Below, piece after piece: positions 158 to 5,177 of a DNA stretch of 21,027 nucleotides (its first letter is position 1; each line of letters starts with the position of its first letter). Under the pieces are notes generated by a model, which did not search any database, had not been told where the DNA came from, and worked only from the letters and a program-made list of their open reading frames with translations. Origin of the DNA: a bacterium (GTDB lineage: Bacteria; UBP6; JAFGXH01); the NCBI GenBank assembly GCA_027064085.1, contig JAMOQH010000018.1, forward strand, positions 1-21,027. Direction: 5' to 3'. The translations under genes and the position numbers were made by a program.

Positions 158-186
158 TTGATTTATTTAAATAGAAGTTGTATTAT
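158..186 (+). promoter_or_regulatory. Probable sigma70-type promoter upstream of the cassette array
   Basis: A -35 box TTGATT (158-163) and a -10 box TATTAT (181-186) are separated by 17 bp. Transcription from about 193 would run through a Shine-Dalgarno-like GAAGGAAAG (198-206) into the small ORF at 210 and on into cassette 1. It occupies the place of a cassette promoter. Such matches arise easily in AT-rich DNA, but the box spacing and the ribosome site downstream make this one credible. Positions 1-157 hold nothing else I can support. Confidence 0.45.
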
Positions 187-209
187 TACTCTGTTTTGAA
201 GGAAAGTTA

Positions 210-347
210 ATGATAAAGGAAATATATACACAATTGTACTTGCACAACCGTATGAGTGGAATAAATACAATTGTGTTTACTCATACGTTAGGCATTATTA
301 GGGAGAACGAAGATATTAACATACAAAAGGAAATAAAATGGCAATAA
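210..347 (+). CDS. Possible 45-codon leader ORF crossing the first recombination site
   Basis: An ATG at 210 follows a good Shine-Dalgarno sequence (GAAGGAAAG, 198-206). The frame stays open through the whole recombination site at 242-293 and ends at TAA 345-347, overlapping the first 10 nt of the cassette 1 gene. The predicted peptide begins MIKEIYTQLYLHNRMSG and resembles nothing I know. The layout recalls the short ORF-11/ORF-18 in the class 1 integron attI1 site, known to raise translation of the first cassette gene. Here that role is inference; the ORF may be chance, although its ribosome site and the overlap with the next start argue for coupling. Confidence 0.35.
   Translation: MIKEIYTQLYLHNRMSGINTIVFTHTLGIIRENEDINIQKEIKWQ
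242..293 (+). other. Short attC-like (or attI-like) integron recombination site
   Basis: Core GTTAGGC (287-293) has the GTTRRRY form cut by integron integrases between G287 and T288. It is preceded by a 9-bp inverted repeat, CGTATGAGT (249-257) with ACTCATACG (279-287), and by a loose left core GCACAAC (242-248). The left core pairs only partly with the right core, which is expected because the right core belongs to the next cassette. At about 52 bp this would be a short attC, or the end of an attI site. It marks the left boundary of cassette 1. Confidence 0.6.
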
Positions 348-1979
348 CATTGAAAAGACAAATATCAGAAGATGAAAAGAAAAGAATTATTGAACGTTTT
401 GGAAGGAAATGTTACGCAACTGGACACGAAATTCCAGAAAATGAAGAAATACAATATGACCATATTAAAGCATTCGCAGATAAAGGTGTAAGTGAAATTG
501 ATAATATCGCACCAATGTGTAAAACACATAATTTACAGAAAGGTCGGTTACCATTAGAAGATTTTAGAATTAAACTTAGAATGAATGAGTTTTTTGAAAA
601 AGGTAATACTTTAACGCTAAAAGATGAATTACTATTTTTTAAAGAAAAAGGAGATATTAATAAATTCGGAGAAACAGTTTATTTTGAAGAATCTGATAGT
701 AACATAAATGTTGAGATAAATTCAAAAAAGTATTCTTTTCAACTTCATAAATGCCCGACTACTGGTTGGAAATATTTTTATGCAACTATTCCTGTCGAAG
801 TAATAAATAGCGATGATGATGAAGACGAAGAGATTGGGTTACAACCAAGATATTTAATTCAAGACAAAGTTTTTAATTTATATCGTCATTTCCAAAAGCA
901 TCCAGTTATTCAACCATCAATTGCAAGAGTTCACAATAATAAAATTTTGGTTTTTGATGGTCAACATAAAATTGCTGCAATGTTATGGGATAATAGAAAT
1001 ATTTTTGAATTAAAAATCTATCTAAATCCCGATGCTCATCTATTAAACAAAACAAACATTGCTGCTCACGACAAATTTGCTCAAACAAGATTCTATTCAT
1101 CAATTATGGTTTCAAAATTGGGTAGTCAGTTTGGTAAATTATTCGATGAATATAAAAATTCGGAAGATGATGCATTAAAATCAGAAAAAGGATTTGTTGA
1201 TTATTTGAAAATATCTGACCAATTGACAAACGGAGAAGTAAATAAAAGATTTAAAAGTTTTCTATATAGTGCTGTACTTGATGAAGAAGTAAATAAATTA
1301 TCAAGATTAGTATCAAAAACAAATAGAAGTTCTGATGAGTATCCAATAACAATGGATATGCTAAGCAAATCTTTATTTTCAAATTTTCTGTATTTAACAC
1401 CTGTTGAAGAAGATTTGGCATCAAACAAATATCTTAGAGAGCAAGAGATTAATAACCTTGTAACCCTTTTTAATATCTTGGATGAAGAAATCCTGCATCA
1501 ATGGGATTTTACAAAACCAAAGTCGGACTTGTTACAGATAAAGTTAAAGAGACTAATTAGAAGTAAATCTATAATGTCTTGGTCTGAAATTTTAAAAGAC
1601 GCAATTGCTGCGAAATTAGATATTTTCGATGCAGATGAGAAAGCAATACTATTTTACAGAGAATTAAATGATGAAGATTTCATTAAAATACGTGAAATTG
1701 TAAGAAGATTAATCAATTGGAGTGTTTGGAATTTACCAGAAAATTCAGATATCGATAGAATACTTGCTGACAACAAAAGTGAAATTAAAAAGTTTTTTAG
1801 AGAAAAAGGACTAACAACTGGATATTTAATGGGTGCACCTGAATAATAACAATGCCTAACAATGTATATAAGGCATTGGGCGGCAAGTAGTTAAATTGAA
1901 TGATATGAAGATTAATAAACGGTATAGTAAATTGAAAGTTAGGTGTTTCAAAATGCCCAACGCCTCATATACGAAACCG
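288..1979 (+). mobile_element. Integron gene cassette 1 (HNH/DGQH protein)
   Basis: This is the circularisable unit from T288 to G1979. Its first bases, GTTAGGCATT (287-296), are the exact reverse complement of AATGCCTAAC (1851-1860) at its far end, so the two halves rebuild a fully paired attC on excision. It holds one gene in the usual cassette orientation, starting 51 nt after the core and ending 7 nt before the left core of its attC. Confidence 0.8.
338..1846 (+). CDS. HNH nuclease-domain protein with ParB/DndB-like DGQH motif; probable defence protein
   Basis: The 502-residue soluble protein has two recognisable parts. Residues about 15-70 form an HNH (treble-clef) nuclease domain: Cys25, the Asp41-His42 pair, Asn56 in NIAPMC, Cys61 and His64-Asn65. 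HNH domains cut DNA using one metal ion. Residues about 170-260 contain FDGQHKIAAM (Asp207-Gly-Gln-His210), the signature of the ParB-like fold in DGQHR-motif proteins such as DndB. An acidic run near 158-165 may be a linker; the C-terminal half is helical and unrecognised. No membrane segment is seen. The start is set by AAGGA at 327-331 and matches the leader of cassette 2. It is the only gene of its cassette, so it should act alone. A role in phage or plasmid restriction is inferred from the domains and the cassette setting; the family name is unknown to me. Confidence 0.7.
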   Translation: MAITLKRQISEDEKKRIIERFGRKCYATGHEIPENEEIQYDHIKAFADKGVSEIDNIAPMCKTHNLQKGRLPLEDFRIKLRMNEFFEKGNTLTLKDELLFFKEKGDINKFGETVYFEESDSNINVEINSKKYSFQLHKCPTTGWKYFYATIPVEVINSDDDEDEEIGLQPRYLIQDKVFNLYRHFQKHPVIQPSIARVHNNKILVFDGQHKIAAMLWDNRNIFELKIYLNPDAHLLNKTNIAAHDKFAQTRFYSSIMVSKLGSQFGKLFDEYKNSEDDALKSEKGFVDYLKISDQLTNGEVNKRFKSFLYSAVLDEEVNKLSRLVSKTNRSSDEYPITMDMLSKSLFSNFLYLTPVEEDLASNKYLREQEINNLVTLFNILDEEILHQWDFTKPKSDLLQIKLKRLIRSKSIMSWSEILKDAIAAKLDIFDADEKAILFYRELNDEDFIKIREIVRRLINWSVWNLPENSDIDRILADNKSEIKKFFREKGLTTGYLMGAPE

Positions 1980-1985
1980 TTGGTG
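1854..1985 (+). other. attC recombination site of cassette 1
   Basis: Left core GCCTAAC (1854-1860) and right core GTTGGTG (1979-1985) flank an imperfect 18-nt inverted repeat, 1864-1881 against 1955-1972. Sixteen pairs are Watson-Crick. The two others are A/C on the top strand, hence T/G wobbles on the bottom strand, which fits the known folding of the bottom strand of attC before recombination. A smaller hairpin, TTGAAA (1932-1937) with TTTCAA (1946-1951), lies inside. The inner 3' part is nearly the same in the attC at 3664-3793, so the two belong to one attC family. Confidence 0.82.
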
Positions 1986-2029
1986 GCAATATGAATAGAA
2001 GAATTTAACAATATAAAAAAGGAAATGAA

Positions 2030-2428
2030 ATGGCAAAAAGAAAAGTATTTATTAGTTATGATTATGTCAATGATAGACATTACAAAAATTTATTATTAGC
2101 TTGGGATAGCAATAAACAATTTGATTTTTCAATAAGTGATTATTCCGCAGATGTTTCTATTAATAGCACAAAAGCTTCTGCAATTAAGTCTGTTTTATCA
2201 AGGTACATAAATGAAGCAACAACATTTTTAGTTATCGTTGGTAAACATACCCACAAAAGTGCTTGGGTGCGCTGGGAAATACAGAAAGCAGTAGAATTAG
2301 GGAAAAGAATTGTAGCGGTAAAAACAGATAGAGAGAATATAACACCACCCGAACTTTATGGAGTTGGTGCAAGTTGGGCTATGTCATTTACTTATTCTTC
2401 AATCGTAACAGCTATTAAAAATGCCTGA
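2030..2428 (+). CDS. ThsB-like TIR-domain protein
   Basis: This 132-residue protein consists of a single TIR-like domain of the MTH538/DUF1863 group, which includes the Thoeris sensor ThsB. The first strand is KVFISYDY (5-12); a middle strand TTFLVIVGK (64-72) is followed by SAWVRWEI (77-84), where Glu83 is the likely catalytic glutamate of NAD-cleaving TIR enzymes; then GKRIVAV (91-97). In Thoeris, ThsB proteins sense phage and make a cyclic ADP-ribose-type messenger from NAD. There is no signal peptide or membrane segment. The start at 2030 has the sequence AAAAAGGAAATGAAATGG, nearly identical to the cassette 1 start, and lies the same 51 nt from the core. The gene overlaps the next one, so the two products probably work together; the messenger role is inferred. 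Confidence 0.75.
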   Translation: MAKRKVFISYDYVNDRHYKNLLLAWDSNKQFDFSISDYSADVSINSTKASAIKSVLSRYINEATTFLVIVGKHTHKSAWVRWEIQKAVELGKRIVAVKTDRENITPPELYGVGASWAMSFTYSSIVTAIKNA

Positions 2429-3656
2429 TTATTCTGATAAAACTTGTTTCGTGATAATGGGTTATGGTCCTAAAAAGGACTATGAAACAGAAAGGATTTT
2501 AGATTTAGATAAAACTTTTGAAAATTTGATTAAGCCTGTTTTTGATAGCCTTAAAATTAAATGTTTCCGAGCAAAAGATATAAGGCATACTGGCGTAATT
2601 GATGTTCCAATGTATGAATGGATATATAAAGCAGATATAGTTGTTGCTGACTTGTCTACATTGAATTCAAATGCTTTATATGAATTAGGAGTTAGACACG
2701 CATTAAAACCATATACTACAATTGTAATATCAGAAGACCAATGCAAATACCCTTTTGATGTTAATCATACAGTTATTGAAAAGTATGAACATTTGGGTAA
2801 AGATATTGGTGTGTCAGAAGCGAAAAGATTTAAAAAAGAGTTGAAAAAGAAGGTTAAAGCAATTTTAAACAAACAAGTAAAAGACAGTCCTGTTTACACT
2901 TATTTGCCTAAATTAATACCGCCTCATTTAGACGACAAACGAGAAGCTATTTTAAAAAGTCCACAAAAGAATGAGCCAACACTTTCAGAACTCGTTGAAG
3001 ATGCTGAAAAAGCAAAAAATAATAATGAATTCAAAATAGCGGCTGAACTATATAAACAATGTTTACGCTTTGAGCCCAATAATACTTTTTTAATACAAAG
3101 ATTAGCCCTTGTAACTTATAAATCAAAAAGCCCCAATCCAAAACAAGCTTTACTAAAAGCCGAAAAAATATTAAAACAGTTAAATCCTGATGAAACAACA
3201 GATATTGAAACACTCGGTTTGTCGGGAGCAATAAACAAAAGACTTTACGAAATAACTAATGAAGAGAAATACCTTTATAAATCAATTAAATATTATGAGA
3301 AAGGGTTTTATATAAATGATGACTATTATAATGGAATAAATTTAGCATTTTTATACAATGTGCTTGCTTCAATTACAGACGATAAATCTCTATCTGAAAG
3401 TTATTATATACAAGCTAATTTATTACGAAAGAAAGTAATTGAAATATGCGAGAAAATAATTCAATCAAAAGGTTTTGTTAAAAGAGAAGATAAACATTGG
3501 TTATATCAGTCAATGGCACAAGCATATTTGGGTATGGGAGAAAACAAAAAATTGGAAAAGTTAATACCGATTATAGAAAATTATTCTAATGGTAAATTTG
3601 ATTTGGACACTTTTAAGAAACAAAATAAAAAACTTATTGAATTGATAAATAGATAA
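2421..3656 (+). CDS. TIR/deoxyribosyltransferase-like domain fused to TPR and TRAFs-binding (TPR-S) region; probable effector
   Basis: The 411-residue protein has three parts. Residues 7-125 form a Rossmann-like domain with CFVIMGYG (9-16), ADIVVADLST (71-80) and ALYELGVRHAL (85-95). This is the pattern of nucleoside-deoxyribosyltransferase/TIR-like nucleotide-cleaving domains, with Glu88 as the candidate catalytic residue. Residues about 188-255 read as TPR helices. Residues about 260-411 resemble the TRAFs-binding/DUF4071 region (called TPR-S in conflict-system studies), with ETLGLSGAINKR (263-274) and the SIKYYEKGFYIN stretch from residue 288. The start codon lies inside the end of the TIR gene with no separate ribosome site, so translation is probably coupled. 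A reasonable model is that the TIR protein makes a signal which the C-terminal module senses, setting off the N-terminal enzyme; this is inference. The domain calls are firmer than the mechanism. Confidence 0.7.
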   Translation: MPDYSDKTCFVIMGYGPKKDYETERILDLDKTFENLIKPVFDSLKIKCFRAKDIRHTGVIDVPMYEWIYKADIVVADLSTLNSNALYELGVRHALKPYTTIVISEDQCKYPFDVNHTVIEKYEHLGKDIGVSEAKRFKKELKKKVKAILNKQVKDSPVYTYLPKLIPPHLDDKREAILKSPQKNEPTLSELVEDAEKAKNNNEFKIAAELYKQCLRFEPNNTFLIQRLALVTYKSKSPNPKQALLKAEKILKQLNPDETTDIETLGLSGAINKRLYEITNEEKYLYKSIKYYEKGFYINDDYYNGINLAFLYNVLASITDDKSLSESYYIQANLLRKKVIEICEKIIQSKGFVKREDKHWLYQSMAQAYLGMGENKKLEKLIPIIENYSNGKFDLDTFKKQNKKLIELINR

Positions 3657-3663
3657 ATACTGC

Positions 3664-3793
3664 CACCAACAAAGGCTATACGTAATGCGGGTAAAGTGCT
3701 AAATATGAACATTGTAGCAATAAATAAAATTAGTGGTAAATTGAAAGTGTGGTGTTTCAAAATCCCAAACTAACCATATAGTCACCGTTACCA
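3664..3793 (+). other. attC recombination site of cassette 2
   Basis: Left core CACCAAC (3664-3670) and right core GTTACCA (3787-3793) bound a site of about 130 bp. The inner arms pair imperfectly: CTATACG near 3676 with CATATAG near 3776, and GGG near 3689 with CCC near 3764. One top-strand C/A mismatch becomes G/T on the bottom strand. The inner hairpin TTGAAA (3741-3746) with TTTCAA (3755-3760) and its surroundings (3734-3770) are close copies of 1925-1961 in the previous attC. The right core differs from the left core because it belongs to the following, decayed cassette. Confidence 0.75.
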
Positions 3794-3812
3794 CACATAA
3801 GAAGAAAAACCA

Positions 3813-4098
3813 ATGCACATAATTGACAAAGAAAAAAAATAGAATATCAAAACTTAAAGAAAAGACTTTTACAACTCAAAAAATATACGGACCTATCGAA
3901 TTTTTCCTTACTGTAATAGATTTAGATAATGTTGCACCAAAATATGGAAAAAGAAAATTAGAAGATTTTTTTTAATAAAGAGGTGAAGAAGTAACTGAAT
4001 TTTGAGACCGAAGTCTAACCAATAAAGGAATTCTTGATGAGACAAAGAATTACTGTATTTCTAGCTTGAAACTTGATTTTAGTATTAAAAAAGTTTAG
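3813..4098 (+). pseudogene. Decayed gene of a third cassette
   Basis: After the core at 3787, an ATG at 3813 opens a frame that ends at TAG 3840-3842, just after a run of eight A (3832-3839). Adding one base there joins it to a frame reading RISKLKEKTFTTQKIYGPIE, which continues from 3841 to TAA-TAA at 3973-3978, next to a run of eight T. The same frame reads on after that (RGEEVTEF, a TGA at 4006-4008, then DRSLTNKGILDETKNY) to TAG 4096-4098. The residue composition looks like protein, so this is probably a broken gene of about 95 codons. I do not recognise the family. No downstream attC core matching GTTACCACAC is present, so the cassette has lost its right end. Confidence 0.4.
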
Positions 4099-4101
4099 AA
4101 T
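4073..4101 (+). promoter_or_regulatory. Probable promoter of the ABC importer operon
   Basis: TTGATT (4073-4078) and TAGAAT (4096-4101) lie 17 bp apart, which places the transcript start near 4108 and leaves a leader of about 17 nt before the malK ATG. The -10 box overlaps the last stop codon of the decayed cassette gene. No operator-like dyad is evident. Confidence 0.5.
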
Positions 4102-4124
4102 GATACTCTTAAGTGAGGGGTAAA

Positions 4125-5177
4125 ATGGCAAGTTTAAAGCTTAAAAACATAAAAAAGACTTATGATGGTAAAAAATTTATAATAAAAGGTGTTGATTTAG
4201 AAATAAAAGACAAGGAATTTATTATTTTTGTTGGACCCAGCGGCTGTGGTAAATCAACTATGCTAAGAATGATAGCAGGGCTTGAAGAAATAACAGACGG
4301 AGAACTATATATTAATGATGAACTAGTAAATAATTTCTCTCCACAAGAAAGAAAAACTGCTATGGTGTTTCAATCTTATGCTCTATATCCTCACATGACT
4401 ATATACGATAATATTGCATTTTCATTAAAATTAAAAAAGGTAAATCCAGATATAATTAAAAAGAAAGTAGAAGAAGTTAGTAAAATACTAGACTTAGATG
4501 AATTTTTAAAAAGAAAACCAGCATCTTTATCAGGTGGTCAACGCCAAAGAGTTGCAATAGGTAGAGCAATTATCAGAGAGCCTAAAGTACTACTTTTTGA
4601 TGAACCATTATCAAATTTAGATGCTAAACTCCGTAACAGAATGAGATTTGAAATTTCAAAACTCAGAAAGAACTTAAATAGTACTTTTGTTTATGTTACC
4701 CACGACCAAGTAGAAGCAATGACTCTTGCAGACAGAATTGTAGTTTTTAATGATGGACACATTCAGCAGGTTGGAACTCCTATGGATTTATATGATAAAC
4801 CCTCGAATTTATTTGTTGCAGGTTTCATAGGCTCACCTCAAATTAATAGTTTTAAAGGCACTATAGAAGGTACTACATTTAAACATGAGTTATTTTCATA
4901 TAATTTAAATAAAACCGTTACCCATAAAGAAATAATTCTAGCAATTCGTTCTGAACACATAGAAATAGTAACAGAAAATGAAGATATTACTGGAGAGGTT
5001 ATATTAATTGAAACCCTAGGTAATGAAACTATACTTTGGATAGAAAATAATAATTTTGATTTTAAAATAAGATTAAATGCTCCTGATAATAAAATTAAAA
5101 ATGGAGATAAATTAAAATTTAAATTTCAATCAGAAAATATACATCTTTTTAATGCCGAAACAGAAGTGAGAATATGA
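4125..5177 (+). CDS. malK: ABC transporter ATPase of the MalK/UgpC/MsmX family
   Basis: The cytoplasmic ATPase drives a sugar importer. From the ATG at 4125 it has 350 residues: Walker [10 protein letters not shown] (37-45), Q-loop Gln83, signature LSGGQ (135-139), Walker B VLLFDEP (155-161) and switch His193 in VTHD. The C-terminal third, from about residue 220 with GFIGSP, is the TOBE/OB regulatory region typical of the family. The length is close to usual. The reading frame could begin at GTG 4113, but GAGGGG at 4115-4120 is the ribosome site for ATG 4125, which is preferred. It is the first gene of the operon, and its stop overlaps the next start in ATGA. MalK-type ATPases often serve several importers, so the sugar cannot be told from this gene. 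Confidence 0.9.

Follow-up and report, generated by a model that had tools for sequence, protein, structure and literature searches.

What is the function of the 502-residue protein encoded at positions 338–1,846 (forward strand, ATG start) of the window, the 21,027-nucleotide stretch of bacterial DNA analysed here, and how does its gene move? A preliminary description of this DNA had placed an HNH nuclease and the sequence FDGQHKIAAM in the one protein. The HNH residues (C25, D41-H42, N56, C61, H64, N65 and K68) and FDGQHKIAAM, beginning at F206, are indeed present, and they are conserved when ten divergent members, all full-length and 20–69% identical to the window protein, are aligned (alignment A5). 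No member of this alignment deviates at C25, H42, N56 or any residue of F206-D-G-Q-H-K211; conservation is at least 90% at D41, N65 and K68. Because the motifs persist across such diverged members, they are not chance occurrences.

The HNH domain spans about residues 6–81 (353–580, forward strand), with the PF01844 match at residues 25–69. In profile searches, PF01844 matched all ten members, with a best E-value of 1.7e-9; the window protein alone gave an E-value of 0.0015 and 19.0 bits, under the curated cut-off of 21.4. The family profile also matched solved HNH domains, namely those of a group II maturase (8.7e-9), Cas9 and a Geobacter HNH nickase (6.5e-6). Among the re-compared Foldseek matches, the HNH part of an AlphaFold2 model was closest to the CBASS effector Cap5 (Z 6.7) and also resembled the Cas9 HNH domain (Z about 5), the Cap5, McrA and Cas9 HNH structures together covering Z scores of about 5.0–6.7. 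Two observations count against reading the domain as a nuclease: the zinc site is incomplete in the subfamily of the window protein, which has C25, C61 and H64 and lacks the second CxxC cysteine, and one viral-contig relative (L038) lacks the HNH residues D41 and N65. IscB and Cas9 matches of the family were rejected as whole-protein identities, as they cover the HNH domain only. None of the PADLOC 2023 models matched the window protein, and matches of its relatives to these models were limited to the HNH parts of Cas9 and PtuB, with no whole-protein match.

The AlphaFold2 model used here was built with the A5 alignment as input and has a mean pLDDT of 84; an earlier model, built from three close homologues, had a pLDDT of 42 and was discarded as unusable. 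Together with profile–profile and structure comparisons, this confident model predicts a ParB/sulfiredoxin fold at about residues 136–248 (743–1,081, forward strand). The best structural match of this central domain is the ParB-like protein PadC (Z 9.6 over 98 residues, 2.0 Å), followed by CDP-bound ParB (Z 8.7) and sulfiredoxins (Z 6.7–7.7). Foldseek against the PDB returned no match with E < 0.001, and its top rows were mostly ParB-family, sulfiredoxin and HNH entries. SspE, DndI and BrxU are absent from the re-compared PDB matches, which says nothing about their folds. An hhalign comparison with five TIGR03187 DGQHR proteins from other genomes gave an E-value of 5.8e-6 and a probability of 85% over residues 143–263, a span that includes YFYATIPVEVI and the DGQH helix. 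Placed through this alignment, FDGQHK (206–211) probably lies within the ParB/sulfiredoxin fold. In single-sequence searches with the window protein, no DGQHR/DndB model (TIGR03187, PF14072) matched, and one of ten relatives gave such a match (E 0.0057); the link to DGQHR/DndB-type proteins therefore comes from profile–profile comparison and fold rather than from a direct model match. Thus the ‘DGQH (ParB/DndB-like) domain’ of the preliminary description stands as regards its ParB/sulfiredoxin fold and its profile–profile homology to DGQHR proteins, but its motif is FDGQHK, not DGQHR, and a direct DndB match is lacking. A DUF6551 model was silent everywhere searched, a result that carries no information. 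The remaining residues, 249–502 (1,082–1,843, forward strand), form an all-helical region in the model, which received no assignment from a fold search that barely probed it. From the HNH, DGQHR, AlphaFold2 and structure matches, the domain order is therefore HNH, ParB/sulfiredoxin, C-terminal helical region.

A 2025 survey lists fusions of HNH (PF01844) and ParB-CTPase-fold domains as novel, giving neither function, context nor order (PMC12704722), and the window protein, matched by its domain types, most probably belongs to that class. The Type IV enzymes GmrSD and BrxU (DUF262 plus DUF1524 HNH) likewise join a ParB/sulfiredoxin-fold domain with a DGQ motif to an HNH domain in one chain, both folds being carried by GmrSD (PMC4619093), and they too occur in defence islands and mobile settings. 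In GmrSD and BrxU, however, the HNH domain is C-terminal and of DUF1524 type and the motif is DGQQR, whereas in the window protein the HNH domain is N-terminal and of PF01844 type and the motif is DGQHK. PF03235 (DUF262) matched none of the ten members, and DUF1524 gave no match. The phosphorothioate-sensing enzymes SspE and DndI couple a ParB-like NTPase motif to an HNH nickase, as is predicted for the window protein, but have the opposite domain order; in addition, the window family shows no DUF262 match and no dndC in eight carrier genomes. On account of the reversed order, the DGQHK motif, the different HNH type and the missing DUF262 match, we place the family outside the GmrSD/SspE/DndI family. 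With the DGQHR/DndB family (TIGR03187, PF14072) the window protein shares a homologous ParB-fold core, but it differs in having lysine for the motif arginine, an HNH fusion and no dnd operon.

The closest relative, 69% identical, comes from outside the phylum, in Ignavibacteria bacterium GWF2_33_9 (L002); a second genome from the same phylum as the window has a copy that is 55% identical (L010). That the nearest relative lies in another phylum while the own-phylum copy is less similar fits horizontal transfer. Further relatives comprise one of 36% identity in genome G201 (L030), a partial copy in G225 (L029), a second subfamily of 20–24% identity in three further genomes of the class of the Ignavibacteria relative (L031–L033) and three copies on viral contigs (L038–L040). 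The family is rare in the class and phylum of genome G028, as few members were found in a search of about 780 genomes. No full-length relative came from a tblastn search of plasmid and phage records; a Pseudomonas plasmid match was rejected as an IscB-like protein, and IMG/VR matches with an HNH domain only (L028, L044) were excluded from the relatives.

The preliminary description had proposed a single-gene cassette that moves alone, and the anatomy of the locus bears this out. Positions 288–1,979 (forward strand) form a one-gene integron cassette, in which GTTAGGCATT at the start exactly complements the R'' box AATGCCTAAC at 1,851–1,860; all ten bases, that is, the first bases of the cassette and the preceding G, are complementary, and the crossover is G|TT. 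The bottom strand of its attC (1,851–1,988, forward strand) in the circular form folds with −21.0 kcal/mol, and none of 200 shuffles was as good. A second cassette follows at 1,980–3,787 (forward strand), with a TIR (ThsB-like) gene at 2,030–2,428, a TIR-like + TPR-S gene at 2,421–3,656 and an attC at 3,661–3,794 (forward strand) whose R'' box TGCCACCAAC complements GTTGGTGGCA at 1,979. In three further cassettes on contigs C188 and C57 of the same genome, cassette start and R'' box are complementary over 9–10 bases. For each of the five cassettes, almost no shuffled sequence folds as well as the bottom strand of the circle. Of the 16 attC stem pairs, 9 show changes in both partners, and sliding the partners destroys the signal, although only five sequences are compared. 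A covariance model trained on these five sites recovers them by construction, including that of the first cassette (E 5.0e-32); it also detected two new sites in the genome, on C171 (7.2e-18) and C133 (8.0e-8).

Similar anatomy was found in a genome outside the training set, G337, in which an attC lies directly behind a second-subfamily relative (2.9e-7) and another lies two cassettes on (2e-15). The start of the first G337 cassette, GTTAGGCAAC, is the exact complement of its own R'' box. Two members that are about 22% identical therefore ride integron cassettes in different genomes. The G337 array (L052:3071-8068, reverse strand) comprises the HNH-DGQHK gene, a Type II methyltransferase with a partner gene, and a 357-residue gene; no recombinase was seen in the 7 kb upstream.

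The HNH-DGQHK gene is the first cassette behind an attI-like site at 200–287 (forward strand; crossover G287|T288). The 75–95 or so bases before the crossover recur, at 79–87% identity, in four other copies in the genome (C159:678-769, C188:70921-71006, C57:397-479 and C133:7385-7462), each copy stopping at G|TT, beyond which the cassettes differ; these counts of attI and attC sites come from sequence searches. A 45-residue leader open reading frame (MIKEIYTQLYLHNRMSGINTIVFT...; 210–347, forward strand) spans the crossover and overlaps the start of the HNH gene at 338 by 10 nucleotides, an arrangement that would allow translational coupling. The leader peptide MIKEIYTQL is kept at four of the five attI-like sites, the exception being C133, and each of the five has a purine-rich stretch resembling a ribosome-binding site. 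Promoter-like hexamers, TTGATT-17-TATTAT (158–186, forward strand), match at 9 of 12 positions, and matches of this quality are no commoner than in shuffles; a TTGATTT promoter-like element precedes four of the five sites (window, C188, C57 and C133). The HNH-DGQHK gene may thus be expressed from a promoter on the attI side, with coupling through the leader.

One of the five attI-like copies, that on C159, adjoins a recombinase gene. This gene (L011:771-1607, reverse strand), which ends directly before the attI-like site, encodes a tyrosine recombinase of 278 residues that scores 229.5 bits with the XerA/integron model NF040815 (cut-off 220) and 205 bits with the IntI model TIGR02249 (cut-off 265), skipping model positions 180–240. 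An additional domain close to the C-terminus sets IntI enzymes apart (PMC9024848). As the recombinase has no IntI-type extra stretch, the platform is integron-like and not a textbook integron, and such a system without a standard IntI would merit attention in its own right. Judged from its position, the enzyme may move cassettes of the type found in the window. No convincing attC was seen on the viral contigs that carry relatives of this enzyme (L065, L066). Integron-borne antiphage cassettes have reportedly been described by Darracq et al. (2025) and Kieffer et al. (2025), both cited in PMC12409362; they resemble the present one in being single-gene defence cassettes beside an array promoter. 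The platform in this genome differs from those integrons in its dispersed attI-like sites and in a recombinase without the IntI extra domain.

The preliminary description had also asked whether homologues lie in defence islands. A known or candidate defence gene adjoins 8 of the 11 loci, or 9 when L002 is counted, as a raw count without a background rate. The neighbour is the TIR cassette in the window, a complete Type I restriction–modification (RM) system (HsdM, HsdS and HsdR) that begins two genes on in L031, a Type II methyltransferase whose partner gene has no annotation in L033, a Type IIG RM enzyme (1,195 bits) in L040, a SIR2/ThsA-like protein in L030, a DRT reverse transcriptase (Drt8, 1.2e-109) in L029, the candidate defence family PDC-S11 in L032 and, about 0.7 kb downstream, a Fic protein of the candidate family PDC-S04 in L010. 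At L002, the neighbour is an 849-residue protein (2015-4564) without a Pfam or PADLOC match, in which an NPPY motif, of the kind carried by adenine methylases, was read by eye; it may have an N-terminal nuclease region and is possibly an undescribed Type IIG-like enzyme. Two viral-contig loci (L038 and L039) are surrounded by phage structural or packaging genes and have no defence neighbour, which counts against a defence function. In a Type I RM locus of genome G229 (L050:8125-9255), a gene for a 377-residue protein of unassigned family sits between the HNH-DGQHK gene and hsdM and is a possible partner.

We consider it probable that the cassette gene encodes a self-contained antiphage nuclease, an NTP-gated HNH enzyme that works in the manner of GmrSD, SspE and DndI. 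The ParB/sulfiredoxin-fold domain would bind, and perhaps hydrolyse, a nucleoside triphosphate through FDGQHK, and the C-terminal helical region would recognize, or position the protein on, the DNA of an invader or the products of its replication. A conformational change that results would then permit nicking or cleavage of DNA by the N-terminal HNH domain. From the computed domains, their order and conservation, the cassette anatomy and the defence neighbours of most relatives, we infer nuclease activity, NTP binding, gating, a DNA target and a phage trigger, with catalytic activity and the trigger being the most uncertain parts. In SspE and DndI, the arginine of DGQQR in the ParB-like domain drives NTP hydrolysis, and mutating it or the HNH asparagine impairs or abolishes phage defence (PMC13251355; PMC11662687). 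The invariant K211 of FDGQHK occupies the motif position of that arginine, and lysine for arginine could weaken NTP hydrolysis. The nucleotide bound by a ParB-fold protein may be CTP, ATP or GTP, and the choice can be predicted neither from sequence nor with AlphaFold3 (PMC12704722); for this reason, the ligand of the window protein is left unnamed.

The earlier wording, ‘restriction-like or abortive’, fits the defence setting, the one-gene mobility and the HNH–ParB fusion, but the two halves of the phrase cannot be separated from sequence. An abortive-infection toxin, in which detection of a nucleotide or of a phage signal by the ParB-fold domain leads the HNH domain to degrade host and phage DNA indiscriminately, with death of the cell, is conceivable, if rather doubtful. 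The Cap5 effectors (Z 6.7), which the HNH domain resembles most closely in structure, are ligand-activated DNases; TIR genes, such as that in the adjoining cassette, are typical abortive parts; and the cassette has no cognate modification gene. However, several relatives lie in or beside RM systems, which fits self/non-self discrimination equally well. We grant about the same limited likelihood to a modification-dependent, Type IV-like restriction enzyme that cuts phage DNA with base modifications, as GmrSD does. The cassette lacks a modification partner, so protection of self would not be required, and the protein is a single gene product with the two parts common to GmrSD, BrxU and SspE (PMC4619093; PMC12839542), but no domain that reads modified bases was recognized in it, its C-terminal region has no assignment and the GmrSD family architecture is not present.

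Two further explanations appear less likely. HNH domains are typical of homing enzymes, and three relatives lie on viral contigs, two of them among phage genes; a homing or mobile-element endonuclease, or a phage genome-maintenance protein, with no defence function would accommodate this. We nevertheless regard it as improbable, since attC sites, not homing, explain the mobility, and the cellular relatives cluster with defence genes. The preliminary description had further pointed to DndB and DNA phosphorothioation. Profile similarity to DGQHR/DndB-type proteins would agree with a DndB-like regulator or a phosphorothioate-sensing nuclease, but this reading is very improbable: a search for DndC (TIGR03183), the one Dnd protein sought, found none in the eight cellular carrier genomes, some of them incomplete, with control genomes matching below the cut-off only. 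DndB is not known to have an HNH domain. In function, the HNH and ParB/sulfiredoxin NTPase effectors GmrSD, SspE and DndI, none of them named in the preliminary description, are a nearer parallel.

The family gives HNH–ParB-fold fusions, recently catalogued without a function, a setting in defence loci and integron cassettes; its architecture is clear, and its members are small, one-gene candidates for testing. It also suggests that the NTP-gate and HNH design of GmrSD, SspE and DndI arose more than once, with its parts in either order, and defence-carrying integron-like arrays are indicated in a little-studied lineage. Speculatively, the gene could represent a new type of nucleotide-gated DNase immunity that needs one gene and has crossed between phyla as an integron cassette. 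In its genome, an XerA-like recombinase lacking the IntI extra domain would then serve several scattered attI sites, each equipped with a promoter and with a leader open reading frame from which translation passes to the leading cassette, in most cases a defence cassette.

The second window cassette lacks ThsA, and its two genes are candidates for a TIR defence pair in which the TIR-like/TPR-S protein would be the putative sensor. The C188 array (L025:8071-10895, reverse strand) holds three cassettes: a 291-residue gene without assignment, a Thoeris pair (ThsA macro 6.6e-56; ThsB TIR 2.1e-21) and an 82-residue GmrSD_N fragment. The C57 cassette (L026:634-1404) carries one gene, of 257 residues, with no family match, and the C171 attC (C171:5684-5824, reverse strand; L064) follows a gene truncated at the end of the contig. 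On C133 (L027:5807-7462, reverse strand), the attI-like site is followed by a gene for a 452-residue FAD/NAD-dependent reductase-like protein and a degenerate attC; this cassette gene is apparently metabolic rather than defensive.
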